A DNA stretch of 33,300 nucleotides, taken from assembly GCA_947488685.1 (NCBI GenBank), contig CANLAH010000007.1, positions 1 through 33,300 on the forward strand, written 5' to 3'. The translations under genes were made by a program, and so were the position numbers. The notes beneath the pieces are model-generated. The model saw nothing but the letters and a program-made list of their open reading frames with translations. It made no database searches and had not been told where the DNA came from. This document shows, one piece after another, positions 1 to 29,442 of the stretch (within the stretch, counting starts at the first letter, position 1; every line of letters starts with the position of its first letter). Origin of the DNA: Acidimicrobiaceae bacterium. Lineage in GTDB: Bacteria > Actinomycetota > Acidimicrobiia > Acidimicrobiales > Ilumatobacteraceae.

Positions 1-449
1 CTACGAACAATCGGCGAAAAATATCCGCCAGCACCGGCGTGAACAGGCATGCTGAATGGCAGTGGAACAGACAGAGCCCACATGGCGTTGCCATCACTTT
101 GTTTTTCAAATGCAATCGTGAGCACCCGTTTGTGGACACCTGACATCACGTGTTGGGCAGCCACAATTGCCGTCGATCCACCAACGCTGCCGGCAGTGTG
201 CACTCTAAACAACGGCTTGCCGCTTGCTGCCAATGAATCGGTCAACCACAACTCAGGCATCATCACGCCTTCGAGCATGTCTGGCGCTTTTCCGATGACG
301 ATGGCGTCAATGTCAGCCAGCGTCATGTTGGCGTCAAGTAAAGCCCGATCAACTGCTTCGCGTACAAGTCCAGCAATACTCACATCACCGCGACACGAGG
401 TGTGATGAGTTTGACCAACTCCAACAACAGCACAACGATGAAGCGCCAT
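1..449 (-). CDS. Thiolase-fold / lipid-transfer (Ltp, SCP-x-like) protein, N-terminal part, truncated at window edge
   Basis: Reverse-complement reading from ATG at 449-447 is open to position 1: MALHRCAVVGVGQTHHTSCRGDVSIAGLVREAVDRALLDANMTLADIDAIVIGKAPDMLEGVMMPELWLTDSLAASGKPLFRVHTAGSVGGSTAIVAAQHVMSGVHKRVLTIAFEKQSDG. Thiolase-like N-terminal domain; start overlaps upstream stop (TGATG). Absent from the ORF track because it runs off the edge. Confidence 0.85.
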   Translation of the reverse strand, partial: MALHRCAVVGVGQTHHTSCRGDVSIAGLVREAVDRALLDANMTLADIDAIVIGKAPDMLEGVMMPELWLTDSLAASGKPLFRVHTAGSVGGSTAIVAAQHVMSGVHKRVLTIAFEKQSDGNAMWALSVPLPFSMPVHAGAGGYFSPIVR

Positions 450-1504
450 CAGTTTCCTTCCAGTACAGCAACGATATTTTGTTGCAGACAAGCACCCTGA
501 GCCGCATGCGCAACAGCGCGATCGGCATCGCCCTTAAAGATTTGTCTAGCGGCTTGACCAAAACGCGCCAGTCCGGCGGCCATGAGTGGATTAGCAACGA
601 GCGCTCCGCCACTTGGCATCATGCGCGTAGTTGAGCGATCTATGCCCATTGATTGCGCCAAGATGATTTCGTGATGGCTATACGTGGCGTGAAGTTCGGC
701 AACATCAACTTTGTCCTTGGTCACGCCAGCATGAAACGAAGCAAGTGCCGCTGAATTGCTTCTGCTGAGATCTCGTAATCCAAGGTTTTGAAAATCAATC
801 CGATGATCGATGCCACGAATCCATGCCGGCCGATCACACATTTCTAGCGCTCTGTCTGCAGTGGTCATAATGATCGCAGCCACCCCGTCTGCCATTGCAG
901 GGCAGTCATGCGCGCGCAACGGATTTGCGGTCATGGGTTCGTCAAGCAACTCATCAGCGTCGCGGTATCCGTAGGCCAATACATTGGGGTTGTCGGCTGC
1001 ATCTCGCAAACTTCGCGACACAACATCTGCCATTTGACGTTCTGTCACAGTTCCGGCGTCAATCGCCGCGCGCGCGCCCATTGCCTCAAGCGAACGAAAT
1101 CCGGGCCACAGCGGAGCGACAACATACGGATCAAGTTGCAATGTCAGCGCGCGATTCATGTCACCTGCCGATGATTTACCATTACCAAACACAAGCGCAG
1201 TATTGGCTTCTCCAGTTTGGATTTTTACCCACGCCTCGTACAGTGCCCATGCGCCGTCCATTTCGACGTGACTCTCCATGATTGGTGGCCATGCGCCCAG
1301 TGCATCGACAGCGGAAACAAAACTAAATGGCTGACCTGTCATGTAGTCACAACTTCCGTGACACCAAAAATCAATATCGCTCCGCTGGACATTTGCACGA
1401 TTCAGGATTTCGTGCACGACAGGCACAATCATCTCCACCGGACTCAGGGTCGTCGCTGAGGTGTTTTGACCTTCGATGTAGGCAACAATTGCAACGTCAC
1501 GCAT
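449..1504 (-). CDS. Thiolase-fold / lipid-transfer (Ltp3/Ltp4-like) protein, 351 aa
   Basis: Translation has thiolase-like features (ESHVEMDGAWALYEAW; ELHATYSHHE; PSGGALVANPLMAAGLARFGQAARQI; GACLQQNIVAVLEG). Start overlaps the DUF35 stop as TAATG. Confidence 0.85.
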   Translation of the reverse strand: MRDVAIVAYIEGQNTSATTLSPVEMIVPVVHEILNRANVQRSDIDFWCHGSCDYMTGQPFSFVSAVDALGAWPPIMESHVEMDGAWALYEAWVKIQTGEANTALVFGNGKSSAGDMNRALTLQLDPYVVAPLWPGFRSLEAMGARAAIDAGTVTERQMADVVSRSLRDAADNPNVLAYGYRDADELLDEPMTANPLRAHDCPAMADGVAAIIMTTADRALEMCDRPAWIRGIDHRIDFQNLGLRDLSRSNSAALASFHAGVTKDKVDVAELHATYSHHEIILAQSMGIDRSTTRMMPSGGALVANPLMAAGLARFGQAARQIFKGDADRAVAHAAQGACLQQNIVAVLEGN

Positions 1505-1995
1505 TACAGATGCCTCGCATACACATCAAAATCTGCATCGGGTTCACCAGTTGGTTTGTAATACAGAATGTTCTCCAGCGACGGCGTCCACTCTGACTTA
1601 TCTTTCCAAACAGGCTCTACACGCATTCCCATGCGCACATCGGCAGCTTCACACTCTTGAATCAGATGCTGCATGCCAATATCGGCACCATCCAAAAGAA
1701 TTGTGGCCGCAACATATGGAATCTTGATTGTCTGACCAAGAAAGGGAACATTCACTACGCAAAACGTGGTGATGGTTCCGCGCGGGCCGACTTCTACTTC
1801 GGCAGCAAGCAATACTCCGCACCTCGGGCATATCCCATTTCGTGGAGGAAAGTACACGAGCTCACAATCAGGACATCGTCTCCCTATGAGTTTGCCATTT
1901 TCAAGACCACGCATGTATACAACTGATCCAGGTCCAGATGACCACGTGTAATCAATGCCAATTGGTGTGCGAATGCGCAAGATGTCGTCAGCCAT
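1504..1995 (-). CDS. DUF35 OB-fold protein with rubredoxin-like Zn-ribbon
   Basis: ORF 1504..2091; likely start is the ATG at 1995 (MADDILRIRTPIGIDYTW), overlapping the previous stop by 8 nt (ATGGCTGA). Zn-ribbon CPDC...CPRCG with VYFPPR, then OB fold ITTFCVVN...VPFLGQTIKIPYVAATILLDGAD. Confidence 0.85.
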   Translation of the reverse strand: MADDILRIRTPIGIDYTWSSGPGSVVYMRGLENGKLIGRRCPDCELVYFPPRNGICPRCGVLLAAEVEVGPRGTITTFCVVNVPFLGQTIKIPYVAATILLDGADIGMQHLIQECEAADVRMGMRVEPVWKDKSEWTPSLENILYYKPTGEPDADFDVYARHL

Positions 1996-2476
1996 GAGCG
2001 CCCTCTGGCTCGAAACACGTGATTGCCGTGATGGATGGAGTTGGTTCGGCTGCCCACACTGCTCGCACGCGCATACCAGTTGACATGTCACTTACAGAAG
2101 CGACACGAACTGCGTGCAACATTGGGGTATCTGCTCCGTCAAGAAGTATGAGTGCCCAAGCAAATGGTTGTTGCAATGTGTTGTCTGCAAATGGCTCTGG
2201 TTGCCAACTCCACGTCAGCACGAGGCCGGTATCGCTAACAGCCACCCACTCTGTGAGAGCTGCTCCGGTGGCGGGATCAAACTCGAGTGGCGGAACGTGC
2301 ACACTTGCGTCAACTCCTCGCGTTCCTTCAATTTTTTTTGCAGCAAGCGACGTTAAAAAACGACCTATGACTGCGCCCACCGTGCGGTCATAGGGATAGA
2401 ACAAGCGAAGTGGCGCCATCAACGAGCCATCGGGGCCAACCGTTGCAATTATGGGAGGTGTACCTGGGGCTGCCAC
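1988..2476 (-). CDS. DUF35-like OB-fold protein lacking Zn-ribbon cysteines
   Basis: 162 aa, GTG start at 2476. VHVPPLEFDPATG resembles the DUF35 linker and QQPFAWALILLDGADTPMLHAVRV matches the OB region of the neighbour, but the CxxC pairs are absent. Confidence 0.7.
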   Translation of the reverse strand: MAAPGTPPIIATVGPDGSLMAPLRLFYPYDRTVGAVIGRFLTSLAAKKIEGTRGVDASVHVPPLEFDPATGAALTEWVAVSDTGLVLTWSWQPEPFADNTLQQPFAWALILLDGADTPMLHAVRVASVSDMSTGMRVRAVWAAEPTPSITAITCFEPEGAHG

Positions 2477-2499: not shown

Positions 2500-2524
2500 A
2501 GTTTCTGACATGGTGTCAGAAACT
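2500..2524. promoter_or_regulatory. Perfect palindrome, candidate TetR-type operator (site 1)
   Basis: AGTTTCTGACA-TGG-TGTCAGAAACT: 11-bp perfect arms, 3-nt centre, in the divergent spacer between 2476 (-) and 2565 (+). Confidence 0.8.
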
Positions 2525-2564: not shown

Positions 2565-3965
2565 ATGAGAAGAATTCTTGGAATCGCTGGAGTTGTCACG
2601 CTCGTAGCACTCAGTGCGTGCTCGGCTAGTGGATCAAGCGACGGCGCTGACTCCACCGCGCAGAGCGCTCCTGTCGACACGGCGGCATCTGGTTCTGACA
2701 CTGTCACATTCGGCACAATGGATAGCCCATGCGGAAAAGGCACTGCCACAGTTGACGCCACTCAAAACGGCGGACCAACACTTAAAGTCGTGGCAGCAAC
2801 AGATAAGGGCTTCACCATTACTCCTGGTCTTGACATCGAACTTGAAGATGCCGCCAAGGGCTTTGTTGGCTGGTGCAACGAACAAGGTGGCATCCAAGGC
2901 GTACCACTCGAACTAATCGAAGTTGATGCCGCTTTATTTCAGGTGCCTGCGGCGATGGAGAAGATCTGCGCAAGCGCATTTGCAATGGTGGGTGGTGGAT
3001 TGGTCTTTGACAATCAAGAGTTCCCACGCTTTCATGAATGCAAGATGATCGACTTTGCTGCGTACACAGTGACATCAGCAAAAGCGGGCTCAAATGGGAA
3101 AATTCAACCCATCCCCAATCCGGCACAAGTGAAGCCAACAAGTTGGTTGTTGTATCTCAAGAAGAATCATGCCGAAGACATCAAAAAGACCGCCATCCTT
3201 GCCGGAAACTTCGAAACTACTTTGAACGTTGCTAAAGGTCTCAAAGAAACCATGGAGATTGTCGGTGGCTTTGATTCAGTAGACATCATTGAGTACAACT
3301 CAGCAGGCGAAGCTTCCTGGACGCCATTCGCACAAAAACTTAAGGACAAGGGAATCACGGCGATGTCCTTTGTCGGATCACCCCCCGGAATCATCCCATT
3401 GCTTAAAGCAATGCAAGAAATTGGTTACAAGCCAAACGTAATTTTTAATGACGGAAACTTCTACGACTCTTCACTTGAAAACCTTGGACCAATGTCTGAC
3501 GGTCTCATTGCACGCACGGTGTATTCGCCTTTTGAAGAGAGCGCAAACTTTCCTGCAATGAGTGACTTCCTGGCCATCATGAAGAAATACAATCCAAGCG
3601 GCAAAATCGCTGGACTCGGCCTGCAGACATTCTCGGCTTATCTCATGTTTGCTCAATCAGTAAACGAGTGCGTCAAGACCAACAACAATGTCATTGAGCG
3701 CGAGTGCGTGCTTGCCCAAGCAAAAAAAATTACGTCATGGACTGCTGGCGGCTTGCACACAGAGACAAATCCGAGCGCAGGCACTCCCCCTAAATGTGGC
3801 ACCCTGATGCAGTTGCAAGGTGGCAAGTGGACACGCCTGTTCCCTGCACTTGGTAGCGCGGACGACAACGGCAATGGTTGGCACTGTGACGAAGATGGAG
3901 TTGCCAATCTGACTGGCTCGTACGGAGACGCAACGCCAGGCATTGACACAAGTCGACCGAACTAA
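2565..3965 (+). CDS. Branched-chain amino acid-type ABC transporter substrate-binding lipoprotein (Peripla_BP_6-like)
   Basis: ORF 2451..3965; true start likely ATG 2565 after AAGGGGGA SD. Lipoprotein signal MRRILGIAGVVTLVALSAC (LSAC lipobox); followed directly by Liv-type permease and ATPases. Confidence 0.88.
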   Translation: MRRILGIAGVVTLVALSACSASGSSDGADSTAQSAPVDTAASGSDTVTFGTMDSPCGKGTATVDATQNGGPTLKVVAATDKGFTITPGLDIELEDAAKGFVGWCNEQGGIQGVPLELIEVDAALFQVPAAMEKICASAFAMVGGGLVFDNQEFPRFHECKMIDFAAYTVTSAKAGSNGKIQPIPNPAQVKPTSWLLYLKKNHAEDIKKTAILAGNFETTLNVAKGLKETMEIVGGFDSVDIIEYNSAGEASWTPFAQKLKDKGITAMSFVGSPPGIIPLLKAMQEIGYKPNVIFNDGNFYDSSLENLGPMSDGLIARTVYSPFEESANFPAMSDFLAIMKKYNPSGKIAGLGLQTFSAYLMFAQSVNECVKTNNNVIERECVLAQAKKITSWTAGGLHTETNPSAGTPPKCGTLMQLQGGKWTRLFPALGSADDNGNGWHCDEDGVANLTGSYGDATPGIDTSRPN

Positions 3966-3998
3966 CTAGCCACAGCACTCGCTGGCGACACTAGAAAC

Positions 3999-6266
3999 AT
4001 GCAGCAACTCGTCGCATATACAGTCATTGGTCTTACGACTGGCGCAATCTACGCCCTTGCATCAAGTGGCCTCGTCGTCACATATGTGACATCTGGTGTC
4101 TTTAATATTGCCCACGGGGCAATCGGAATGATTGCCGCATTTTCTTACTGGCAAGTTCGCTTTGAGTGGGGATGGCCTGCCCCAGTTGCGCTCTTTGCCA
4201 TTTTGGGAGTGCTGTGTCCAGCACTGGGCCTTGTTATCGATCGAGTTGCTCTTCGCGGTCTCGCACAGGCAACCGAGGTCACGCGGCTCACAGCGACTGT
4301 GGCGTTAATGGCTGCGTTTATTGGCATCGCCACATGGATCTGGCCACCAGAAAATCGTCAACCGTTTCGTGGATTCTTTGATGGCAACAACGTGAGTGTC
4401 CTCGGCGTCAATGTGGGCTGGAACAAAATTATTGCTCTCATCGCCGCAGTAGTAGTAGCAGGGGGTCTGCGAATCCTGTTGTACAAGACTCGCCTTGGAA
4501 TACAAATGCGAGCCGTTGTCGACGACCGCAGTTTGGCCGAACTCAATGGTGCGCGACCAGCGCGCATCGCAAGTGCATCTTGGGCGCTCGGCGCATCGTT
4601 GGCTGGACTCGCTGGCATCTTGCTCGCCGCCGAGGTTCAACTCAATGTGGTGCCGCTGACATTGCTGGTCATCAATGCTTATGCCGCTGCAATCTTTGGC
4701 AGGCTCAAAAGTTTGCCGCTCACCTTTTTAGGAGCAATGGCTCTGGGTTTAACCGAAGCATATTTACTATGGGGTCAAGGGCAATCGTGGTTCCCCGAAA
4801 CAATCGGTGGCTTCTCCACTTCTGGCTTGCGACAGGCCACTCCAACAATTTTCCTTTTCCTTTTGCTTATGTTATTACCGCAAGCCAAATTACGAGCTGG
4901 TGCTGCGCGAGTGCGTGAGCGTTCGGCAATTCCACAATGGAATACCGCAATTTTGGGAGCAGCGGTTTTGGTCATCGGTTCAATTGCTGTGACCGGCATG
5001 ATGACTCGCTCAAACACGATCTATCTCATACAAGCGCTCATTATGGCCCTTGCAGTCGTGAGTCTTGTCCCACTCACGGGTTATGCCGGTTTGGTATCGC
5101 TCGCACCATTGACATTTGCTGGTATCGGTGCGGTGCTGATGTCCAAAATGCCCGGAGACGGAAACGTCGTCTCATTGATCGCAGTTGTCGTGGTTGTGGC
5201 GCTCATCGGAGCAGTCGTCGCATTACCTGCATTGCGACTTGAAGGCATTTATTTAGCACTTGCCACAGGAGCATTTGCCTTGCTCGTGTCAATCTTGGTG
5301 TTTAACCAAGGCAAGATTTTTTCCAACGGCGTTGCTGAAGTGCCACCATTGCGCTTACCTGGCGTAGATCTTTCACAGCCACGACCAAAAGCAATTTTCT
5401 TGTCTGTGGCGTTCGCCGTGGTCGGGTTGCTACTCGTAGCACTGCGACGCAGTTCATTGGGACGTCAGTTTGTAGCAATGAAAGATTCGCCACTTGCAGG
5501 AGCCACATTGGGCATGAACTTGGTGCGCACGAAAGCATTGGCATTTGCGATGAGTGCAGCAATCGCATCCCTTGCCGGAGCACTTGACGCTGGCAAGGTT
5601 GCACCAGATAACTACACGTTCGATCGCAGTCTTCCAATCTTATTGTTGGCGATCGTCAGCGGTGTCGGCTCGATCGGTGGTGCGTTTTTTGGTGGGATGC
5701 TGCTCGGGTCTAACACTGTCCTGGCTTCAATTGTTCCGTCGGTCTCAAACATCACGCAAGTCATGCCTGGCCTGATCGGGCTCAGCATGGGACGCAATCC
5801 CAACGGAACAGCATCTCAGATTGCCACTGGGTTTCGCCCCGTCACATCTCATCCACAATCACTCCTCACTGCTCTTAGCGGTATCGGCGCACTCTGGTTG
5901 CTGACATCAGTCGACATTATTTCGCATTGGGGATTTTTTGCCGCGCTCGTCATCTGGGGTCTAGGAATTGTGCCCAACCTGCCAGCACTCGCTGTCACGT
6001 CTGGACGATCCCGTGCGTTGTGTCTTCTTATCGCTGCTGTCGGAATGGGTATTGCAGCATTCTTTGACGACATCTTTGAGGCTGTGCCAACCGGTGGACG
6101 ATTGTTGGCAATCATCGTGTTGTTTGTAGTTGTTGGTAATGCAATACGCCGTATCCACACTCCCGTCGCGCCAACATCAAAATCATCACCAGATTTAATG
6201 GGACTGACTGGTTTTACTCCTGAAGAGTTGTCACAGTCTGATCGCGCAATCAAGGTGGTGCCATGA
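3999..6266 (+). CDS. Fused LivH-LivM-type ABC permease with extra C-terminal membrane segment
   Basis: 755 aa. N-terminal LivH features (GLTTGAIYALASSGLVVTYVTSGVFNIAHGAIGM), second half LivM-like (GYAGLVSLAPLTFAGIGAV ... LEGIYLALATGAFALLV ... SGVGSIGGAFFGGMLLG). Confidence 0.9.
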   Translation: MQQLVAYTVIGLTTGAIYALASSGLVVTYVTSGVFNIAHGAIGMIAAFSYWQVRFEWGWPAPVALFAILGVLCPALGLVIDRVALRGLAQATEVTRLTATVALMAAFIGIATWIWPPENRQPFRGFFDGNNVSVLGVNVGWNKIIALIAAVVVAGGLRILLYKTRLGIQMRAVVDDRSLAELNGARPARIASASWALGASLAGLAGILLAAEVQLNVVPLTLLVINAYAAAIFGRLKSLPLTFLGAMALGLTEAYLLWGQGQSWFPETIGGFSTSGLRQATPTIFLFLLLMLLPQAKLRAGAARVRERSAIPQWNTAILGAAVLVIGSIAVTGMMTRSNTIYLIQALIMALAVVSLVPLTGYAGLVSLAPLTFAGIGAVLMSKMPGDGNVVSLIAVVVVVALIGAVVALPALRLEGIYLALATGAFALLVSILVFNQGKIFSNGVAEVPPLRLPGVDLSQPRPKAIFLSVAFAVVGLLLVALRRSSLGRQFVAMKDSPLAGATLGMNLVRTKALAFAMSAAIASLAGALDAGKVAPDNYTFDRSLPILLLAIVSGVGSIGGAFFGGMLLGSNTVLASIVPSVSNITQVMPGLIGLSMGRNPNGTASQIATGFRPVTSHPQSLLTALSGIGALWLLTSVDIISHWGFFAALVIWGLGIVPNLPALAVTSGRSRALCLLIAAVGMGIAAFFDDIFEAVPTGGRLLAIIVLFVVVGNAIRRIHTPVAPTSKSSPDLMGLTGFTPEELSQSDRAIKVVP

Positions 6267-6976
6267 CCGCTCTTCTTGAGGTTCGTAGTGTTGCTGTTCG
6301 CTTTGGCGGTGTCATGGCGCTGTCAGGAGTTGACCTTGATGTGCAAAAAGATTCAATCACTGGGCTCATTGGCCCTAATGGAGCCGGCAAAACAACCCTC
6401 TTTAATGTGATCTGCGGAATCCGTCAGCCCACGACAGGTGTTGTGCTGCTTGACAATGAAGAAATCAATGGTGTTCCCACTCAAAAACGAAGTGCCATGG
6501 GGATTGGACGCACCTTTCAGCGACTTGAACTCTTCACCACCTTGTCGGTTTTTGACAATGTTCTTGTTGCTGCCGAACTCGCTCGCGTCAGCAATCCGCA
6601 TGCCGTTGCGCGCGAGCAGATCGAACTTCTTGGTCTGACTGATCGTGCCGACACGATTGCCGGAGAACTACCGACAGGATCAGCACGCTTGCTCGAAGTT
6701 GCGCGTGCACTTGCCGGGCGTCCGCGATTGCTCTTGCTTGATGAACCCGCCTCTGGGTTAGATGATGTCGAAACTCAACAACTCGGCGTTTTGTTGCAGC
6801 AACTTAAGTCACTGGGCATCACTGTCTTACTTGTCGAACATGATATGAGTTTGATCATGAAGGTATGCGATCAAATTCATGTGTTAGATCTCGGGAACGT
6901 AATTGCAAGCGGAACACCCGATCAGATTCAACACGATCCAAGTGTCATTGACGCATATCTCGGAGCAGTGCGATGA
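6263..6976 (+). CDS. livG: LivG-type ABC ATP-binding protein
   Basis: Walker A GPNGAGKTT, signature-like LPTGSARLLEVARAL, Walker B LLLLDEPASGLDD; ATGA overlap with permease. Confidence 0.92.
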   Translation: MTALLEVRSVAVRFGGVMALSGVDLDVQKDSITGLIGPNGAGKTTLFNVICGIRQPTTGVVLLDNEEINGVPTQKRSAMGIGRTFQRLELFTTLSVFDNVLVAAELARVSNPHAVAREQIELLGLTDRADTIAGELPTGSARLLEVARALAGRPRLLLLDEPASGLDDVETQQLGVLLQQLKSLGITVLLVEHDMSLIMKVCDQIHVLDLGNVIASGTPDQIQHDPSVIDAYLGAVR

Positions 6977-7689
6977 GTGGAATCGGCGAACCTATTCTTG
7001 AACTGAAAAATATCAGTGCGAGCTACGATGCTATTTCGGTACTGCACGATGTCAATATCACCGTGCGCCGTGGAGAAGTCATGGCATTGCTCGGACCAAA
7101 TGGTGCCGGAAAAAGTACGGTTCTCAAAATTGCTAGCGCCTTAATGCGTCCGACGCAAGGCTCCGTCCACATTGCTGGACACGACCTCACTGGAGCCGCC
7201 GCGAGTGAACTTGCCAGACTCGGCGTGTGCACGATTCCAGAAGGACGCGGGATTTTCCCCAATCTCACTGTTCGCGAAAATCTGGAGATGGCTGCCCGAA
7301 AAGGACTCTCTGTCTCGGTCATCCAAGAACGTGCTTTCGCACGTTTCCCAATCTTGGCTGAGCGCAGAACTCAACTTGCCGGAACATTGTCTGGTGGTCA
7401 GCAGCAGATGCTCTCGTTGGCGCGCGGTTTAGCAACCGATCCTGTTTTGCTGATGTTGGATGAAATGTCAATGGGGCTTGCCCCGATTGTGGTTGCCGAT
7501 CTGTACGAACAGGTACAAGCCATCGCTGCCGAGGGAGTCTCGGTACTTGTGATCGAACAATTTGCCCGCACCGTGCTCGGAATTGCAGATACTGCAGTCG
7601 TCATGTCTCATGGTCATGTTCGGTTCTCTGGTAACGCCCGTGACGTGGATGAAGCCACTCTGTCGAGCGCCTACCTTGGGACAAAGTAA
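6973..7689 (+). CDS. livF: LivF-type ABC ATP-binding protein
   Basis: Walker A GPNGAGKST, signature LSGGQQQMLSLARGL, Walker B LLMLDEMSMGLAP; ATGA overlap with livG. Confidence 0.93.
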   Translation: MSGIGEPILELKNISASYDAISVLHDVNITVRRGEVMALLGPNGAGKSTVLKIASALMRPTQGSVHIAGHDLTGAAASELARLGVCTIPEGRGIFPNLTVRENLEMAARKGLSVSVIQERAFARFPILAERRTQLAGTLSGGQQQMLSLARGLATDPVLLMLDEMSMGLAPIVVADLYEQVQAIAAEGVSVLVIEQFARTVLGIADTAVVMSHGHVRFSGNARDVDEATLSSAYLGTK

Positions 7690-16978: not shown

Positions 16979-17704
16979 ATGCTACAAATTCACCATCACG
17001 GGGCCGTACGAATTCTGACGCTTGACAGACCAGAAGCCCGCAACGCGATGGACCACAGCCTGTATATGGCATTGGGAGATGAGCTCACCGATGCAGCCAA
17101 TGATGACGATGTTCATGTTGTGATGGTCACGGGTGCTGGTCCTGCCTTTTGTGCGGGACAGGATCTTCACGAGATGGCTGCGCTGGCAACTGGCAGTGTG
17201 TCGTTTGCAGGTGGTCATGGTTTTACGCGCATGATGGATGTTCTTGAGATATTTCCTAAGCCGATTATTGCTGCGGTCAACGGAGCAGCAGCCGGCATTG
17301 GGCTAACGATACTCCTGCATTTTGACATCGTGTTTGTTGGGCAAAGTGCACGACTGCGAGTGCCGTTTTCAGAGATGGGAGTGCCGCCAGAAGCCGCCAG
17401 TAGCGCACTGCTGCCCGAGCGAGTGGGCTGGCAAAAAGCATCTGAATTGTTATTCACGAGTTCGTGGATGAGTGCTGAAGAAGCCGTGCAGTACGGACTC
17501 GCCCTGCGCCTTTTTGCAGATGACGTACTTCAAGAAGAGACTCTAAAAATGGCACTTCAAATTGCATCATTTGATGGTCGCGCTACACGCACTTCAAAAG
17601 AACTCATGCTGGCAGCGCGCGGTGATATTTCGATTGCCGCGCGAGCACGCGAAAATGCAGCGTTTGCTACGTTGTTTCGCACACGACGCGAGTCAAAAGA
17701 CTAG
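16979..17704 (+). CDS. Enoyl-CoA hydratase/isomerase (crotonase) family protein
   Basis: ORF from 16937; internal ATG 16979 (MLQIHHHGAVRILTLDRPEARNAMD). TGAGPAFCAGQDLHEMA, PKPIIAAVNGAAAGIGL. Confidence 0.88.
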   Translation: MLQIHHHGAVRILTLDRPEARNAMDHSLYMALGDELTDAANDDDVHVVMVTGAGPAFCAGQDLHEMAALATGSVSFAGGHGFTRMMDVLEIFPKPIIAAVNGAAAGIGLTILLHFDIVFVGQSARLRVPFSEMGVPPEAASSALLPERVGWQKASELLFTSSWMSAEEAVQYGLALRLFADDVLQEETLKMALQIASFDGRATRTSKELMLAARGDISIAARARENAAFATLFRTRRESKD

Positions 17705-18849
17705 AGGCGTTCGATAATGGTGACGTTGGCCTGACCGCCACCCTCACACATTGTTTGCAATCCATAACGACCGCCTGTGCGTTCGAGTTCGTGCAGCAGA
17801 GTCGTCATGAGTCGAGCACCCGTTGCACCAAGTGGATGACCAAGTGCAATCGCTCCCCCGTTGACATTGACTTTGGCGTGATCTGCACCAAGTTCTCGCA
17901 TCCATGCCATAACGACAGGAGCAAACGCCTCATTAATTTCTACAAGGTCGATATCGTCAATGGTCATTCCGGCTTTTTGTAGCGCTCTTTTGGTGGCCGC
18001 TATCGGTGCAGACAACATCATTATCGGATCATCAGCCAACACGCTGATGTGATGGATACGTGCACGCGGCTTGAGGCCATGTTGTTTGACGGCGCGTTCG
18101 TTCGCAATCAATAATGCAGCAGAGCCATCGCTGATCTGACTTGCGCATGCTGCAGTGAGTTGCCCGTCTGGTGTAAGTGTTTTCAGTGAGCGGATTTTGT
18201 CCCAGTTAGGTTCGCGCGGTCCTTCATCATGTATCACGCCGTTGAGCGGCTCGATTTGTGATTCAAAGCGGCCCTCGGCGATTGCCCTGATTGCACGTAG
18301 GTGACTCTCAACAGCAAACTCTTCCATCTCTGCACGAGTAAGTTTCCATTTGCTCACCATCATTTCGGCACCCACAAACTGACTGACTTCACCTGTGCCA
18401 TACCTAGTTGTCCAGCCAGGTGAACCTGTAAACGGATCGGAGAATCCGAGCGCTTCACCCGCCAACATCGCCGACGAAATGGGGATCATGCTCATGTTTT
18501 GCACACCACCAGCAACAACGAGATCCATCGTGCCGCTCATCACTGCTTGTGCGGCAAAATGCACAGCCTGTTGTGCAGAACCACATTGACGATCGATAGT
18601 GGTGCCCGGAACATGTTCTGGCAAACCAGCAGTGAGCCAACACGTGCGCGCAATGCATCCTGCTTGAGGCCCAACTGAATCAACATTGCCAAAGACAACA
18701 TCATCAACAGCATTGGCATCAACGCCGGTGCGATCAATCAGGGCCTTAATGCTGTGTGCCCCAAGATCTGCTGGATGAACCTGTGAGAGGCCACCACCGC
18801 GTCGACCTACAGGAGTGCGAACAGCGTCGATAATAAATGCTTCAGTCAT
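17701..18849 (-). CDS. Acetyl-CoA acyltransferase, FadA6-like
   Basis: Likely start 18849 (MTEAFIIDAVRTPVGRRGGGL). DRQCGSAQQAVHFAAQAVMSG, NGGAIALGHPLGATGARL, GLQTMCEGGGQANVTIIERL; retains nucleophilic Cys and C-terminal Cys. Confidence 0.92.
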   Translation of the reverse strand: MTEAFIIDAVRTPVGRRGGGLSQVHPADLGAHSIKALIDRTGVDANAVDDVVFGNVDSVGPQAGCIARTCWLTAGLPEHVPGTTIDRQCGSAQQAVHFAAQAVMSGTMDLVVAGGVQNMSMIPISSAMLAGEALGFSDPFTGSPGWTTRYGTGEVSQFVGAEMMVSKWKLTRAEMEEFAVESHLRAIRAIAEGRFESQIEPLNGVIHDEGPREPNWDKIRSLKTLTPDGQLTAACASQISDGSAALLIANERAVKQHGLKPRARIHHISVLADDPIMMLSAPIAATKRALQKAGMTIDDIDLVEINEAFAPVVMAWMRELGADHAKVNVNGGAIALGHPLGATGARLMTTLLHELERTGGRYGLQTMCEGGGQANVTIIERL

Positions 18850-18925
18850 GGTTTTGAGTCTAGTTGGGGAACTCCGCATCTCCCGAGTAAACGGTAGGCC
18901 ATCTCCCCTGATTCAAGATCCTTCG

Positions 18926-19702
18926 TTAAGGCTCCCAGCCATTCTCTGTTTTGCGCCAACCACGTGCTGCGTCGCTACCGCCGTCGACATGGATAGTGGT
19001 GCCGGTAATAAAACTTGACGCACTCGATGCCAAAAATACCGCTGCACCAGCGATGTCATCTGCGCTACCCCACCCCAGCGCCAAAGTGGCACCGTAATCA
19101 CGATCACCAACAAGTAATGTTTCGTCACCTGGAGTATGCATCGCGTCTGGGGCAAGGGTGTTAACCCGAATATTGCGCGGACTCAATTCAAGAGCAAGTG
19201 TGCGACTGATGTGTTCTACGGCAGCCTTCATAGCGCCATAAATACCAAAGCCTGGAGCGGCGCGGTATGCCTCCACTGACGTGACATTGATAATCGAGCC
19301 GCCCTCCGACATTTTTGGAACGCACGCGCGAATAAAATTAGTGACACTTGTGAAGTTTTCATCAATGACAGAACGCTGGCCCTTATCGTTTACGTCAAGA
19401 ACCCACGAATAGAATGTTCCACCAGCATTATTGACAAGCACATCAATACGGGGCAGATCAGCGACCCATGCATTGACCGCATTGGTATCGCGCACGTCGA
19501 GAACAGCCGTGACACAGTTTGCGCCCAGATCACGAATACGTTGAGCAACACTCTCCATGTTGTCTGCATCACGATCACAAATAAAAACGGACGCACCAAA
19601 GTTTGCATACGCCAATGCAATAGCCTCACCAAGACCTTTAGCGGCACCCGTGACAATGATATTTTTGCCGTCTAGTCGAAACGCATCTTTTGCTAGCACC
19701 AT
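18926..19702 (-). CDS. Short-chain dehydrogenase/reductase
   Basis: Likely start 19702 (MVLAKDAFRLDGKNIIVTGAAKGLGEAIA); GIYGAMKAAVEHISRTLALEL; TGTTIHVDGG. Confidence 0.9.
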   Translation of the reverse strand: MVLAKDAFRLDGKNIIVTGAAKGLGEAIALAYANFGASVFICDRDADNMESVAQRIRDLGANCVTAVLDVRDTNAVNAWVADLPRIDVLVNNAGGTFYSWVLDVNDKGQRSVIDENFTSVTNFIRACVPKMSEGGSIINVTSVEAYRAAPGFGIYGAMKAAVEHISRTLALELSPRNIRVNTLAPDAMHTPGDETLLVGDRDYGATLALGWGSADDIAGAAVFLASSASSFITGTTIHVDGGSDAARGWRKTENGWEP

Positions 19703-19703
19703 G

Positions 19704-20498
19704 TCAGCGAGCCTTCCAGTCAATGCGCTTGCCGCTAGTAAACATTGCTTGACCTTCGGCCATGGCTTCGGGAGTGTTGCCCAGCACAACGAGATGAGGT
19801 GCTGTAGCCAATGCTTGGGCGCGAGCCATATTGCGCGCTGCCCACAACGCGCGCAATGTGCCCTGCACTGCAGCCGCTGGTTGTGACGCGATAGCGCTAG
19901 CGATTCGGCTTGCGGTTTCGTGCAACTGCTCTATTGGAACAACGTCTTGAACAAACCCCACCTCGTAGGCACGTTTGGCAGTGAGGCGTTCGTGGTTTCC
20001 CATGAGCGCAATGCGAGTGAGTTCGCCCCACGGCAATTGTCCGTACAACAAGATCGGTTCAAACGCAGCGGTCATGCCATATGTGGTGTGCGGGTCAAAA
20101 AAAGTTGCATGATCTGCCGCCACAATGGTCTCGACTTCTCCGAGCAAATAAAACGCACCGCCACACGCCATACCGTTGACGGCTGCGACAACGGGTTTCC
20201 ATAAGTTTGCCGATTTTGGCCCGAGGCGCAAGCCTGGATCGTTGATTGTCATTGGGCCATTGGGTTGGGGTACGTCCCATGTGCGATCGATGCCCGTGCA
20301 AAATGCTTTATCGCCGGCGCCAGTCAACACAATGGCACGCACAGAGTCGTCGGCGCCGAGGCGATGCCAGGCATCTTCGATCTCGTCCACAAGGGTCTCG
20401 TTAAAGGAGTTGTGGGCGGCGGGTCGATTGAGCGTCACCCAGCCGACCGCTCCATCTGTCTCGTAGCCAATTGTGGTGTAGGCGTTGTCCGTTGCCAT
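19704..20498 (-). CDS. Enoyl-CoA hydratase/isomerase (crotonase) family protein
   Basis: 264 aa; GAVGWVTLNRPAAHNSFNETLVDEIEDAW, TGAGDKAFCTGIDRTWD, KPVVAAVNGMACGGAFYLL. Confidence 0.9.
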   Translation of the reverse strand: MATDNAYTTIGYETDGAVGWVTLNRPAAHNSFNETLVDEIEDAWHRLGADDSVRAIVLTGAGDKAFCTGIDRTWDVPQPNGPMTINDPGLRLGPKSANLWKPVVAAVNGMACGGAFYLLGEVETIVAADHATFFDPHTTYGMTAAFEPILLYGQLPWGELTRIALMGNHERLTAKRAYEVGFVQDVVPIEQLHETASRIASAIASQPAAAVQGTLRALWAARNMARAQALATAPHLVVLGNTPEAMAEGQAMFTSGKRIDWKAR

Positions 20499-20576
20499 CT
20501 GCGTCTTTCTTGATCTGTCTTGATCTGTCGCTTTGCCTAGAATGCCCTGAATGGTCTGTGGGTCTTATGTTACTTA

Positions 20577-20599
20577 CAATCTGACAGACCGTCAGAAAC
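20577..20599. promoter_or_regulatory. Candidate TetR-type operator (site 2)
   Basis: CAATCTGAC-AGACC-GTCAGAAAC; right half identical to site 1, left half 6/9; TCTGAC-N5-GTCAGA core is perfect. Lies in divergent spacer 20498/20618 directly after a TACAAT -10-like hexamer (20575..20580). Confidence 0.7.
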
Positions 20600-20617
20600 C
20601 AATGCTACAGTGCCCCT

Positions 20618-21826
20618 ATGCGCGAATTACCTAAAATCATCTCCGTTGACGACCATGTCATTGAACCTGCCACCGTGTGGACAGACCGTATCCCAAAAAA
20701 ATACCAAGATGTGGCACCGCGCATTGAGCGACGCACCGTCAAAGAGATGTCGTTCATTGGCGGAAAGTTCACCGCTATTCCTGGCGACAAGGGCGACAAG
20801 GGCGAAATGGTGGACTGGTGGTTTTATGAAGACCTCCGTCGTCCACTGACTCGTCTTGACACTGCTGTGGGTTTTGATCGCGATGACATCACGCTTAAAG
20901 GAATCACCTACGACACGATGCGACCTGGTTCGTACTTAATTAAAGATCGTCTTGAAGACATGGACATCAATGGCATCGAAGCTTCGCTGTGCTTCCCTAC
21001 TTTCCCTCGGTTTTGCGGACAGACGTTTACAGAGGCAAGCGATAAAGATTTGGCCACGCTGTGTGTGCAGGCTTACAACGACTGGATGATTGAAGACTGG
21101 TGCGGAAACTCTGGTGGTCGATTGTTACCGCTCACAATCGTGCAACTCTGGGATCCCATCGCGGCAGCAAAAGAAGTTCGACGAAATGCTGATCGTGGTT
21201 GTCACGCAGTGTGTTTTAGTGAGATACCTGCCAACTTGGGATTGCCAAGTATTCATGATGAAAACGGATACTGGATGCCGTTCTTTGAAGCCTGCAACGA
21301 CACCGGCACAACCATCAACATGCATATTGGTTCTGGTTCAAAAATGCCAAGCACCTCACCTGATGCGCCGGCGGCTGTTGGGTCGGTGCTGACATTTGCA
21401 AACTGTTGCTTCAGTATGGTGGATTGGCTCATGAGTGGACTGTTTACTCCATTTCCTGATCTAAAAATTGCGTACAGCGAAGGACAAATCGGATGGATCC
21501 CGTACATCCTTGAGCGCGCCGATACGGTGTGGCGAGAAAATCGCGGATGGGGTGGCGTCGCAGACAAAGTCTTCGAGTTGCCGAGTGAACTTTTCAAGAA
21601 GCATGTCTACGGTTGCTTTTTTGATGATGCGTTTGGTCTAAAAAATATTGAGTCCATCGGCGTCGACAATGTGACATACGAAAGTGATTATCCGCATAGC
21701 GATAGCACATGGCCTCACACTGCCAAGTTGGCTGCCGAACAGACTGCAGATTTATCAGATGAAGTGATGTACAAAGTCTTGCGTGGCAATGCCATCAAGA
21801 TGCTCGGTATCACACATCTGTCCTAA
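20618..21826 (+). CDS. Amidohydrolase-2 family protein
   Basis: 402 aa; IISVDDHVIEPATVW, INMHIGSGS, DNVTYESDYPHSDSTWPHT. Confidence 0.88.
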   Translation: MRELPKIISVDDHVIEPATVWTDRIPKKYQDVAPRIERRTVKEMSFIGGKFTAIPGDKGDKGEMVDWWFYEDLRRPLTRLDTAVGFDRDDITLKGITYDTMRPGSYLIKDRLEDMDINGIEASLCFPTFPRFCGQTFTEASDKDLATLCVQAYNDWMIEDWCGNSGGRLLPLTIVQLWDPIAAAKEVRRNADRGCHAVCFSEIPANLGLPSIHDENGYWMPFFEACNDTGTTINMHIGSGSKMPSTSPDAPAAVGSVLTFANCCFSMVDWLMSGLFTPFPDLKIAYSEGQIGWIPYILERADTVWRENRGWGGVADKVFELPSELFKKHVYGCFFDDAFGLKNIESIGVDNVTYESDYPHSDSTWPHTAKLAAEQTADLSDEVMYKVLRGNAIKMLGITHLS

Positions 21827-23409
21827 TGCGCGCTGATCTTAAACACGGCACCATTGCGCAATTGGTGCGCGACTGCGCGACACAATACGCCGATGTTGAG
21901 GCCTTGGTTGACGGCGACATCCGTCTGGGCTACCCCGAATTTGTCCAAGAAGTTCAGCGCACTGCCCGAGCATTCATGGCCGCAGGACTGAGTCGCGGTG
22001 ATCGCGTCGCTATGTGGGCGCCAAATATTCATGAGTGGGTCATTGCTGCTCTTGGTGCACTCACCGCTGGTGGAGTGATTGTGCCTCTCAATACCCGCTT
22101 TAAGGGTGAAGAAGCTGCGTATGTCTTGTCTCGCAGTCGCGCCCGATTCTTGTGCTGCGTCAATGGTTTTCTTGGCAACGAATACGTGTCAATGCTTCGC
22201 GCTGCTGACACCAGTGTCCCCGATCTCGCCACCATTGCGGTGCTGCGCGGAGACACACCCCACAACACGGTGTCGTGGACAAATTTTTTGTCGGCGGCAG
22301 ACACAGTGTCTGCGGCACAACTAGACGAACGTGTTGCAAGTATTTCTGCGAGCGATCTCTCCGACATTATTTTTACAAGTGGCACGACAGGTCGCCCCAA
22401 AGGCGTAATGGCAACACACGAACAAAATCTCCGTGTGTTTGAAGACTGGGCTTCAATTATTGGACTGGCTCAAGGTGATCGCTACCTCATTGTTAATCCT
22501 TTCTTTCATACGTTTGGATACAAGGCCGGAATCATTGCATCACTTCTGAAAGGTGCAACCATAATTCCCGAAGCAATCTTTGATGTTCCGGCAGTACTGC
22601 AACATGTCAGCGATGAAAAAGTCACGATGTTGCCGGGTCCACCGACACTGTATTTATCTATTCTCAACCATCCAGATCGAGATAAGTTTGATCTGAGTTC
22701 GCTGCGTCTCGCAGTTACGGGTGCTGCTGCCGTGCCAGTTGAGATGATTAAGCGAATGCGCGAAGAACTTACTTTCAAAACGATAATCACTGGTTATGGA
22801 CTCACTGAATCCACCGGAACAATCAGCATGTGCCGGCCCCAAGATGATCCCGAGATCATCTCAACCACAAGTGGCAGAGCAATTCATGACGTCGAAGTTC
22901 GTATCGTTGACGACAACAACCTTGAAGTACCCCGCGGCACTGCTGGAGAAATTGTTGCTCGTGGATACAACGTGATGAGTGGTTATTTCGAAGATCCTGT
23001 TGCCACGGCCGAAGCAATCGATTCAGACGGATGGCTTCACACGGGTGATATCGGAGTGATGGACGCTAATGGTTATATCGACATCACTGATCGCAAAAAA
23101 GATATGTTCATCGTGGGTGGATTCAATGCATATCCAGCCGAAATCGAAAACTCATTGCTTGGCCACGGCTCAATCGCACAGGCGGCAGTCGTCGGTGTGC
23201 CAGACGAACGCCAGGGCGAGGTCGGATGGGCTTTTGTCGTGGCGCGAACAGGTGCAACAATTGACCCAGATGGTCTGATTTCTTGGTGCCGTGAGCGCAT
23301 GGCTAACTACAAAGTGCCCCGGCGCATCGTGGTGGTCGAAGCCTTGCCCACAAACCCGAGCGGCAAAGTTCTCAAGTACGAACTACGTGCTCGAGCGGCA
23401 ACTATGTAA
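21826..23409 (+). CDS. AMP-forming acyl-CoA ligase, FadD3-like
   Basis: 527 aa; TAATG overlap with previous gene; DIIFTSGTTGRPKGVMATHEQNL, GYGLTESTGTISMC, DRKKDMFIVGGFNAYPAEIE, TNPSGKVLKYEL. Confidence 0.85.
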   Translation: MRADLKHGTIAQLVRDCATQYADVEALVDGDIRLGYPEFVQEVQRTARAFMAAGLSRGDRVAMWAPNIHEWVIAALGALTAGGVIVPLNTRFKGEEAAYVLSRSRARFLCCVNGFLGNEYVSMLRAADTSVPDLATIAVLRGDTPHNTVSWTNFLSAADTVSAAQLDERVASISASDLSDIIFTSGTTGRPKGVMATHEQNLRVFEDWASIIGLAQGDRYLIVNPFFHTFGYKAGIIASLLKGATIIPEAIFDVPAVLQHVSDEKVTMLPGPPTLYLSILNHPDRDKFDLSSLRLAVTGAAAVPVEMIKRMREELTFKTIITGYGLTESTGTISMCRPQDDPEIISTTSGRAIHDVEVRIVDDNNLEVPRGTAGEIVARGYNVMSGYFEDPVATAEAIDSDGWLHTGDIGVMDANGYIDITDRKKDMFIVGGFNAYPAEIENSLLGHGSIAQAAVVGVPDERQGEVGWAFVVARTGATIDPDGLISWCRERMANYKVPRRIVVVEALPTNPSGKVLKYELRARAATM

Positions 23410-23461
23410 TACGGGCCATCCTGCCTACACTTCTACACACTGACAAATATCGGGGGACATT

Positions 23462-24568
23462 ATGCGCGGAATCATTTACGACGGAACCACGTCACGACTA
23501 GTTGAGGGAATCCAAGTTCGCGATCCTGGACCGCGCGAAGTCATCGTTGAAATCGGGGCAGCCGGCCTCTGTCACAGCGACGTCAGTTACATGAGTGGCC
23601 TCTACCCTGTTCCGTCACCTGGCGTGTGTGGTCACGAAGGAGCCGGAATCGTCACGACGGTCGGCAATGCCGTCACGCATGTGAAACCGGGAGACCATGT
23701 CATTATTGCCACCCTGTCTTCGTGCGGAATGTGCGAGTACTGCGCGTCTGGACGCCCAACGGCGTGTCGGGCAACTCTTGCCAACTGGAGCCAGCCTTTT
23801 ACCTTTGAAGGAAACCCGATCTTTAATTTTGCAGCGACAAGTGCTTTTGTTGAGCGCACATTGGTGCGCGATGTGCAGTGCGTCAAGATTCCCGATGATG
23901 TGCCGCTGTCGTCAGCGGCCATTGTGGGATGTGGTGTAGTTACCGGAATGGGTGCTGTTTTCAACAGAGCAAATGTTCAGCGTGGACAGAGTGCTGCAGT
24001 CTTTGGTGTTGGAGGGGTTGGACTCAATGTCATCCAGGCGCTGCGTGTTCAGGGTGCAACCACAATCATCGCGATCGATACTGTTCCCGAAAAAGAATCA
24101 ATCGCCCGAAAATTTGGAGCCACCCACTTTATTGACGGCAAGCGCGAAGACATTGTTGACGCAATTGCTCAAATCTGCCCATCAAGTGCCACTGCACCAC
24201 GTGGTGCGTTTAACTCTGGCGGCGTGAACTGGGCATTTGATTGTGTCGCTCATCCAACCGTTACATGGAATGCGCTTGAGTCACTGGACTGGGAAGGAAC
24301 TGTTGTCGTCATCGGTGTCGCATCGCAAACAGCAGAGTTCAAAGGCTTGTATGGTCGCCTCACTCAGGTCGACAGAGGCATCATCGGTTGTCGCTACGGC
24401 TCAATCTCGCCACATCGCGATATCCCACGGATTATAGAGATGTACCGTCGCGGAGATGTGCTACTTGATGAACTTGTCACAGCGATTCATCCAATTGAAA
24501 AGTGGCAAGACGCAGTTCATGAGATGGAAACTGGAGCAGTTGCTCGCGGCGTTTTGTCGTTTCAGTAA
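23462..24568 (+). CDS. Zn-dependent medium-chain alcohol dehydrogenase
   Basis: 368 aa; GLCHSDVSYMSG, GHEGAGIVTTVG, structural-Zn motif CGMCEYCASGRPTAC, Rossmann GVGGVGLN. Confidence 0.92.
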   Translation: MRGIIYDGTTSRLVEGIQVRDPGPREVIVEIGAAGLCHSDVSYMSGLYPVPSPGVCGHEGAGIVTTVGNAVTHVKPGDHVIIATLSSCGMCEYCASGRPTACRATLANWSQPFTFEGNPIFNFAATSAFVERTLVRDVQCVKIPDDVPLSSAAIVGCGVVTGMGAVFNRANVQRGQSAAVFGVGGVGLNVIQALRVQGATTIIAIDTVPEKESIARKFGATHFIDGKREDIVDAIAQICPSSATAPRGAFNSGGVNWAFDCVAHPTVTWNALESLDWEGTVVVIGVASQTAEFKGLYGRLTQVDRGIIGCRYGSISPHRDIPRIIEMYRRGDVLLDELVTAIHPIEKWQDAVHEMETGAVARGVLSFQ

Positions 24569-24580
24569 TTCGGTTCAAAG

Positions 24581-26071
24581 ATGCAACTTCCCCCTGCCCC
24601 GTTGACAGGGAACTTCAGTTCTGTCCTCGATGTCTTTGATGAGGTCATTCGGGTTGCGCCTCTCCACGAAGCATTTGTTCAACCTAGTGCCAACGCGCCA
24701 ACACGTCGATTAAGTTTTGTTGACTGGGCGACACAGGCTGATGCCTTGGCTGGCTGGTTACACGAACAGGGTGTGCGCAAGGGAGATGTTGTTGGACTGC
24801 AATTACCAAGCGGTATCGACTATGCAATCGCATACCAAGCCATTGTTCGTGTTGGCGCACTCGCCACTGGCATAAACCCACGCCTTGGTCCTAGTGAGAT
24901 TAGCCACATCATTGCACGTTGCGAACCCGTGTATGTTTTCGACGGCGCTTTGCCAGACTGCCACGGTGGAGACCCATTGCGACGACGAGTCGCTCTTGAA
25001 TCAACAGATCCGATGGCCATAGTTTGGACTGGCGGAACAACTGGCTTTCCAAAAGGTGCGTGGTTTGATCATGCTTGTCTTGAAGCAATGTCACACGGTG
25101 CTGCACCGCTGAGCGTTGTCGGTGATCGCCGTTTGTCACCACTCCCCTTTGCTCATATTGGGGCAATGACGCGTGTCTGGGATGAATTGATGCATCTCAT
25201 CACCACAGTGATTGTGCCGTCTCCATGGACTGCCGCTGGTGCGCTGAGTGCAATCCATTCCGAACGCGTCAGTGTCAGTCAAGGAGTCCCGACACAGTAT
25301 CGAATGATGTTTGATCATCCAGACTTTGCAGCGACTGATACTTCTCACCTACGCATCGCTGGCATTGGTGCAGCGCGTATTCCTCCCGAACTCGTAATGG
25401 AAATGCAAGAAAAACTAAAATGTCCGGTTGTGGTGCGCTACGCCAGCACAGAAGGATGCCTAGCAACCGGAACCCGACTCGACGATGACATTGAGACCAT
25501 CTGCACAACGGTGGGCAGACCAAATGGTGGGGTCAAGATTCGCATTGTTGCATCTGACGGTTCAGAATGCGCGCCGAATGAAGTCGGCACGGTGCAATTG
25601 CACAGCCGTGCACGAATGCGCGGATACTGGAAAGACCCCGAACTTACGAATCAATCTATTACGCCTGACGACTGGCTGATCACAGGTGATCTTGGTCGCG
25701 TCGATGCAGTTGGCAACTTGCATCTCGCTGGGCGCAGCACCGAAATGTATATCCGAGGTGGCTATAACGTGTATCCAATTGAGATTGAAAATGTTCTTGG
25801 CACGTATTCAGACATCTTGAGCGCGGCCATTGTGGGCGCATCTGTGTCAGACAGATTAGGCGAGATCGGTGTACTTTTTGCCGTTGCCCGACCGGGGACA
25901 ACACTCGAACTGTCAGCCATCCGCTCCTTTGTTCAAGCATCTTTGGCCAACTACAAGGCTCCCGATATCTTGGTGGTAGTTGCAGAACTTCCGCTGACAT
26001 CACTAGGCAAAGTAGACAAGAAGCAACTACAACCAACAGCAGATCAGGAGGCCGCCCAATGGTCGCGCTAG
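24581..26071 (+). CDS. AMP-forming acyl-CoA ligase
   Basis: 496 aa; IVWTGGTTGFPKGAWFDH, YASTEGCLATG, GRSTEMYIRGGYNVYPIEIE, TSLGKVDKKQL. Confidence 0.9.
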   Translation: MQLPPAPLTGNFSSVLDVFDEVIRVAPLHEAFVQPSANAPTRRLSFVDWATQADALAGWLHEQGVRKGDVVGLQLPSGIDYAIAYQAIVRVGALATGINPRLGPSEISHIIARCEPVYVFDGALPDCHGGDPLRRRVALESTDPMAIVWTGGTTGFPKGAWFDHACLEAMSHGAAPLSVVGDRRLSPLPFAHIGAMTRVWDELMHLITTVIVPSPWTAAGALSAIHSERVSVSQGVPTQYRMMFDHPDFAATDTSHLRIAGIGAARIPPELVMEMQEKLKCPVVVRYASTEGCLATGTRLDDDIETICTTVGRPNGGVKIRIVASDGSECAPNEVGTVQLHSRARMRGYWKDPELTNQSITPDDWLITGDLGRVDAVGNLHLAGRSTEMYIRGGYNVYPIEIENVLGTYSDILSAAIVGASVSDRLGEIGVLFAVARPGTTLELSAIRSFVQASLANYKAPDILVVVAELPLTSLGKVDKKQLQPTADQEAAQWSR

Positions 26072-27606: not shown

Positions 27607-27621
27607 CGAAAGAAGAACATC

Positions 27622-28362
27622 ATGGGCAAATTAGACGGGAAAAAAGCAATCATCACGGGTGCTGGCTCCGGCATTGGCAAAGCGACTGCGATTCGATTCG
27701 CTGCTGAGGGAGCACGTGTTGCGTGCGTCGATCTGCGCGGGGCACAAGACACTGTGTCTCAAATTGGTGGCGACGCATTTGCTCTTGACTGCAATATTGC
27801 AGATGCCAGCGCAGTCGAATCAATGGTGGATAGTGCTGTTGCCACGATGGGTGGTCTTGACATCTTGTGCAATATCGCTGGTATCGGACATTTTGCGTGG
27901 AGCCACGAAGAACCACCTGCAGAGTTTGACAAGATACTCGCCGTCAACCTGAACGGCACCTTCTACACGTGTCGCTTTGCGCTTCCCCATCTACTCGCAG
28001 GAGGCGGCGGCGTGATCGTGAACACTGCAAGCACTGCTGGCTTAATTGGGCAACCATGGAGTGCGGCATATTGCGCCAGCAAAGGCGGAGTCGTGATGCT
28101 CACAAGGGCTCTGGCGTATGAATACCGTGACCAAAATATTCGCGTGGTGGGCATTGCCCCTGGCGGCACTAATACAAACATTATTAGTTCGTTCTCGAGT
28201 ATTCCAGAAGGAGCCGACTACAAATTGATTAACAAGTTGATGACGCCGGTAAAAAATGCAGACCCATCAGAAATTGCTGGAGCATTTGCATTTGTAGCGA
28301 GTGACGAAGGTCGATTTATTACTGGATCGATTCTCACCATTGACGGCGGAATTGTTTGCTGA
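27622..28362 (+). CDS. Short-chain dehydrogenase/reductase
   Basis: 246 aa; GKKAIITGAGSGIGKATA, NIAGIGH, SAAYCASKGGVVMLTRALA. Confidence 0.92.
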   Translation: MGKLDGKKAIITGAGSGIGKATAIRFAAEGARVACVDLRGAQDTVSQIGGDAFALDCNIADASAVESMVDSAVATMGGLDILCNIAGIGHFAWSHEEPPAEFDKILAVNLNGTFYTCRFALPHLLAGGGGVIVNTASTAGLIGQPWSAAYCASKGGVVMLTRALAYEYRDQNIRVVGIAPGGTNTNIISSFSSIPEGADYKLINKLMTPVKNADPSEIAGAFAFVASDEGRFITGSILTIDGGIVC

Positions 28363-29380: not shown

Positions 29381-29405
29381 TCCGATGATAGTGCCTCTCC
29401 TGGGG

Positions 29406-29428
29406 GTTTCTGACGGTGTATCAGATAC
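29406..29428. promoter_or_regulatory. Candidate TetR-type operator (site 3, imperfect)
   Basis: GTTTCTGAC-GGTGT-ATCAGATAC; left half identical to site 1, right half 7/9; divergent spacer 29338/29443. Confidence 0.65.
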
Positions 29429-29442
29429 TCTCGCGGGTGGCT

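Follow-up and report, generated by a model that had tools for sequence, protein, structure and literature searches.

A palindromic motif as the probable operator of a TetR-family regulator at putative steroid-catabolism genes of Acidimicrobiia

We found that three palindromes in the window (the whole stretch of 33,300 nucleotides analysed here) share the core TCTGAC-N5-[GA]TCAGA, and that they are quite likely operators of the TetR-family protein encoded at 32530..33165, which would govern a steroid-catabolism regulon. The candidate regulon originally predicted from the window alone is borne out on a larger scale, as the motif recurs genome-wide in promoters of CoA-catabolism genes and tracks this TetR over 298 genomes. 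Going beyond that prediction, the regulon takes in putative steroid side-chain and C/D-ring genes, extends past the window's borders and is also present in other phyla. To our knowledge, the regulation of bacterial steroid catabolism is mostly understood from mycobacteria, their relatives and Comamonas. Judging from sequence comparison, many freshwater and soil bacteria seem to govern their steroid-degradation genes by such a TetR-motif switch, and in them the TetR appears to stand in for, or beside, the two steroid regulators of Mycobacterium.

Three palindromes in divergent promoters

Scanning of the window located TCTGAC-N5-GTCAGA exactly at 2504..2520 and 20580..20596, and with a single departure at 29409..29425, where ATCAGA replaces GTCAGA; the common core of the three predicted sites is thus present as described.

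2500..2524, no strand: putative operator site 1, AGTTTCTGACATGGTGTCAGAAACT, exact match, between the DUF35/Ltp cassette (-) and the Liv importer (+)
20576..20600, no strand: putative operator site 2, core TCTGACAGACCGTCAGA, exact match, between the ECH-SDR-thiolase operon (-) and the amidohydrolase operon (+)
29405..29429, no strand: putative operator site 3, GGTTTCTGACGGTGTATCAGATACT, one mismatch, between TauD (-) and the FadE-FadE-SDR-TetR operon (+)

The genes on either side of these sites are as follows.

449..2476, minus strand: lipid-transfer gene (PRK07937) and two OB_ChsH2_C/DUF35 genes, divergent from site 1
2565..7689, plus strand: Liv-type importer 3' of site 1, with binding protein, permease and two ATPase-sized ORFs
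17701..20498, minus strand: crotonase-SDR-thiolase operon, divergent from site 2
17701-18849, minus strand: thiolase PRK07801
18926-19702, minus strand: SDR of the operon divergent from site 2
19704-20498, minus strand: crotonase, assigned from its clustering with ECH genes next to sites elsewhere
20618..28362, plus strand: operon of Amidohydrolase_2, AMP ligase, ADH, two AMP ligases and SDR, 3' of site 2
28364..29245, minus strand: TauD/TfdA dioxygenase, divergent from site 3
29437..30630, plus strand: acyl-CoA dehydrogenase, large subunit type (FadE), from Pfam and PDB relatives, start from orthologs
30640..31599, plus strand: acyl-CoA dehydrogenase, second subunit, IpdE2-like (match below cut-off)
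31631..32533, plus strand: SDR oxidoreductase, PRK07791 subfamily
32530..33165, plus strand: TetR-family regulator, presumed repressor, from TetR_N and TetR_C_38 matches, co-occurrence with the motif and an AlphaFold2 model

Each of the three sites lies inside a divergent promoter spacer, which we confirmed with gene starts corrected from orthologs. The start of the Liv binding protein moves to 2565, placing site 1 about 45 bases upstream, and that of FadE to 29437 (MDLRYTE..., as in relatives G007 and G010), so that site 3 ends 11 bp 5' of the FadE start codon. The pattern TCTGAC-N5-RTCAGA gives five strand-matches in the window, compared to a chance expectation of 0.01 (the mean in dinucleotide shuffles of the window). 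On rescanning the rest of the window we found no extra copy at zero or one mismatch, in agreement with the original reading; two-mismatch matches at 1033, 11991 and 31271 fall in coding DNA and look like chance. Site 1 had been called a perfect 25-bp palindrome, and it is a palindrome of that length, but its three central bases depart from symmetry.

The consensus compiled from the sites is W-TCTGAC-R-N3-Y-GTCAGA-W. Inverted repeats located in spacers could also be RNA terminators, other structural elements or chance repeats, an explanation that we consider almost certainly wrong given that these are found immediately 5' of starts in divergent promoters rather than at gene ends, that the half-sites are constant across the compiled sites while the N5 centre varies, and that the phyletic tie to a TetR described below refutes it in the main.

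Site 1 has the same sequence at the same place in relative G021, a match that carries no footprint information because the entire spacer is nearly identical there. With the site 1 spacer common only to near-identical genomes, footprinting was limited to spacers 2 and 3, and in both the palindrome is conserved in relatives. The site 2 palindrome is a conserved island of an otherwise diverged spacer in the window's own genome (G000), G021, G007 and G010; site 3 likewise forms a conserved island, with its position kept in G021, G007, G010 and L176.

Within the Liv importer, the first of the two ATPase-sized ORFs was confirmed by Pfam. The permease (3999..6266) is a 755-aa ORF with two BPD_transp_2 stretches, apparently two Liv permeases fused. 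A Liv-type binding protein adjoining a site in another genome (G028, L087) proved to be no close relative of the window's.

Recurrence at catabolic genes across the genome

The window's own genome is a 1.94-Mb draft, 83% complete, in which the exact pattern occurs five times compared to zero for the control pattern, and the pattern with up to one mismatch 15 times compared to four. Reading gene context from stretches around the sites plus a contig sample, we recognized eight good-context sites, three in the window and five outside:

C6:28357: between FadE and a luciferase-like monooxygenase
C6:32066: between an aldehyde dehydrogenase and an amidohydrolase
C53:3966: between a crotonase and an SDR
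C53:10077: between an SDR and FadE
C69:8373: between an amidohydrolase and a luciferase-like gene

All five exact sites and all eight good-context sites are intergenic and at catabolic genes, in a genome where intergenic DNA makes up about 8.6% of the sampled contigs. The remaining 7 of the 15 matches with at most one mismatch lie in coding DNA or unrelated spacers; their number is about what the control predicts, and we regard them as background. The 201 kb of other contigs were used only to estimate the intergenic fraction and to provide a Pfam background, and their zero count was discounted since site-bearing contigs had been excluded on purpose. High-GC genomes (G026, G029 and Streptomyces) have unreliable gene calls and were left out of intergenic counts.

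Among 60 site-adjacent proteins from ten genomes of the order, Pfam identified 11 acyl-CoA dehydrogenases, eight Amidohydro_2, six SDR, four ECH (crotonase), four OB_ChsH2_C, three aldehyde dehydrogenases and three CoA-transferase III, while for 47 proteins flanking divergent spacers elsewhere in the window's genome the listed families included no acyl-CoA dehydrogenase or Amidohydro_2. Sites are mostly 10 to 100 bases 5' of start codons, and pairs of CTGAC/GTCAG half-sites are enriched at a spacing of 5 only. The genome-wide scan therefore concentrates the sites in CoA-catabolism promoters instead of scattering them at background frequency in coding DNA, and supports the motif as a putative regulon motif.

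The TetR protein and its tie to the motif

The TetR gene is the last of the FadE-FadE-SDR-TetR operon downstream of site 3. Its product matches TetR_N with 26.3 bits (cut-off 24) and TetR_C_38 (PF19352) with 78 bits (cut-off 23.9), and its AlphaFold2 model (pLDDT 92.5) has an all-helical fold with an N-terminal HTH. The recognition segment SPATFYQYF is invariant among 55 TetR relatives. By sequence, the protein shares a trait of its family, a palindromic putative operator in a divergent or its own promoter.

Across 298 genomes of the order, we counted 400 sites in the 85 with this TetR compared to 36 in the 213 without it. At least two sites were found in 63 of the 85 TetR genomes and 3 of the 213 others (p 1e-41), and stratification by family, using the 13 mixed families, leaves 36 of 50 genomes with TetR against 1 of 56 without (p 1e-9). 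For the window's genus (25 genomes), the four genomes with at least three exact sites are exactly the four with a close TetR ortholog. Searching within 5 kb of TetR genes in GTDB genomes of Acidimicrobiia, Myxococcota, Deltaproteobacteria and Gammaproteobacteria yielded 21 exact and 24 one-mismatch sites, with 0 and 0 for the control pattern. In L156, L165, L178 and L181 no more than about 70 bp separate the site from the TetR match start downstream of it, and in G025 and G244 it adjoins the TetR gene. There were 17 TetR genomes without an exact site; in several of these a version with one or two mismatches lies close to the TetR gene, and in others none was found.

Alternatively, the motif could serve as operator for a different regulator co-inherited with the catabolic genes, the TetR being a passenger. 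TetR and catabolic genes do travel together, with ipdA found in 119 of the 298 genomes including 81 of the 85 with TetR, and for that reason co-occurrence alone cannot separate regulators of one gene set. However, the motif is missing from most ipdA genomes without TetR (38 genomes with 13 sites in all, compared to 368 in the 81 with TetR; at least two sites, p 2e-13), which argues that the motif follows the regulator and not merely the pathway. Consistent with this, 15 of 24 sampled TetR genomes have the motif, with at most one mismatch, upstream of ipdA, compared to 0 of 6 sampled genomes without TetR. Further points against a passenger role, which we judge improbable, are that several lineages have sites directly 5' of their TetR gene, that a small inverted repeat shaped like this one suits a TetR dimer, and that the HTH is invariant. 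On the pattern of sites and genes, it is very probable that the window's TetR binds the palindrome.

In three genomes (G028, G101 and G163) two to five exact sites are accompanied by no TetR match, perhaps because of draft gaps or a replaced regulator.

Putative steroid pathway genes at the sites

Gene identities in this section were assigned by homology. Downstream of C6:28357 are genes for FadE, a MaoC+DUF35 protein, a second FadE, a 136-residue protein, a lipid-transfer thiolase and a P450. The best solved relatives of the FadE-type proteins in this operon are 6wy8 and 4x28, which we take to be ChsE-type dehydrogenases; those of its ChsH2/ChsH1 proteins are 4wnb, 4w78 and 6ok1, named ChsH2/ChsH1 in the PDB. 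The window's own FadE (29437..30630) is closest to 4x28 chain A and 6wy8/6wy9. Downstream of C53:3966 follow a crotonase, IpdA, IpdB and an NMO/FabK-like protein (IpdC-like), with 6con/6co6 the best PDB relatives of IpdA (1e-98) and 6co6 that of IpdB (2e-78), entries that presumably represent IpdAB. The gene order of this operon matches the echA20-ipdA-ipdB-ipdC of the published KstR2 gene table (PMC5380842). Going by these homologies, one motif covers both putative side-chain and C/D-ring genes in this genome.

A real regulator and motif could nevertheless serve a non-steroid pathway for branched or cyclic acyl-CoA, such as those of a terpenoid, a bile acid side chain or a cycloalkane. Model searches of the window's own genome (83% complete) for KshA and the 2,3-dioxygenase gave sub-threshold matches only, leaving the ring A/B genes not found, so that the compound actually consumed might be a bile acid, a steroid already degraded in part or some other polycyclic terpenoid. 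Several regulon members have no known steroid role (amidohydrolases, Liv importer and TauD), and regulon contents differ between genomes. Against this, sets of IpdA/IpdB/IpdC-like and ChsH1/ChsH2/Ltp genes occur in matching gene order, and the best PDB relatives come from the steroid pathway, making a non-steroid pathway rather unlikely in our estimate.

Comparison with known regulators

The motif was predicted to differ from the operators of KstR and KstR2, and our comparison agrees. For KstR2, whose operator was given in that prediction as AAGCAAGnnCTTGCTT, counts in five genomes were not above control. The KstR operator is TnnAACnnGTTnnA (PMC1995591), distinct from TCTGAC-N5-GTCAGA. KstR of M. 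tuberculosis (Rv3574) is an autoregulated TetR-family repressor of sterol side-chain genes with sites often between divergent genes (PMC1995591). The system described here resembles it in regulator family and in sites between divergent genes, but the window's TetR belongs to another subfamily, TetR_C_38; a side-chain-like operon that the TetR may control follows C6:28357. No KstR ortholog was detected in the window's own genome, where the best match to NCBIfam transcr_KstR NF033703 scores 33 bits against a cut-off of 280, and none of G000, G021, G007 and G039 has a gene near that cut-off. The larger genomes G026, G029, G164, G293 and G123 have KstR-like proteins that fall short of the KstR cut-off with at most 164 bits, so the TetR may act there beside another regulator.

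KstR2 (Rv3557c), also of the TetR family, controls ipdA, ipdB, ipdC, ipdF, fadA6, fadE30-33 and fadD3 (PMC5380842; PMC6678751), and in M. tuberculosis the work is divided, with KstR acting on the side chain and rings A/B and KstR2 on rings C/D (PMC6678751). In the majority of sampled TetR genomes noted above, the motif lies upstream of ipdA, a gene that the TetR may control; unlike in the KstR2 regulon, putative side-chain and C/D-ring genes are here under a common motif. Among 46 PDB matches of the TetR profile, none is named KstR2.

The closest solved sequence and, by Foldseek of the model, the nearest solved fold is EthR of M. tuberculosis, whose identity to the TetR over the fold is only about 19% and whose operator has been described as larger and more complex rather than a simple palindrome (PMC4482099).

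Proposed mechanism and implications

KstR and other TetR repressors suggest how the switch would work: a TetR dimer most likely sits on W-TCTGAC-R-N3-Y-GTCAGA-W between divergent promoters and would block transcription on both sides, which fits the placement of sites, mostly 10 to 100 bases 5' of start codons. Its release would come from a pathway intermediate, most probably a steroid-derived CoA thioester. We infer binding, repression, inducer and growth substrate alike. At site 3, presumed to be autoregulatory, the TetR would repress its own operon. The predicted regulon would comprise a sterol side-chain operon (ChsE, ChsH1, ChsH2, Ltp and P450), a C/D-ring operon (crotonase, IpdA, IpdB and IpdC-like) with divergent SDR/ligase genes, and the window's FadE, amidohydrolase, thiolase, Ltp/DUF35 and importer units.

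It is plausible, though by no means assured, that these TetR_C_38 proteins form a third, undescribed class of steroid repressor, one that would unite the roles of KstR and KstR2, act as the main such regulator in many Acidimicrobiia, and occur across Myxococcota and Proteobacteria with a conserved operator. The pair of motif and regulator may allow steroid-catabolism genes to be listed directly in metagenomes across a mostly uncultured order, and such listing could include members that homology alone would miss, such as the amidohydrolases, TauD and the Liv importer. The TetR is also a candidate sensor of steroid metabolites, and the arrangement raises the question of why this lineage would use one switch and mycobacteria two.

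Related motifs elsewhere

We found no match to the motif with 5-nt spacing in the open-access literature. SAV151, a TetR of Streptomyces avermitilis that controls sav152-154 (PMC10933834), has reported sites with TCTGAC/GTCAGA or CTGAC/GTCAG halves (PMC10933834 Table 2). The half-sites are as here, but the printed spacing is 10 instead of 5; SAV151 is a possible distant relative of the window's TetR.

Eight Streptomyces loci (L191, L201, L206, L207, L210, L211, L214 and L217) carry a conserved variant, TCTGACG-N3-CGTCATR, located 2.4-3.8 kb downstream of the start of a TetR with 36-39% identity; in L207, an ORF near it reads like PdxH. Four loci titled 'Bifidobacterium breve' (L141, L148, L167 and L185) have Acidimicrobiia-like TetR genes, and their organism labels look wrong. 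On a plasmid of Sphingomonas paeninsulae (L219 11878..11894), ACTGAC-N5-GTCAGT lies about 75 bp 5' of a related TetR (37%), divergent from a CoA-transferase/ligase/crotonase operon, with the same spacing as here and the outer base changed.
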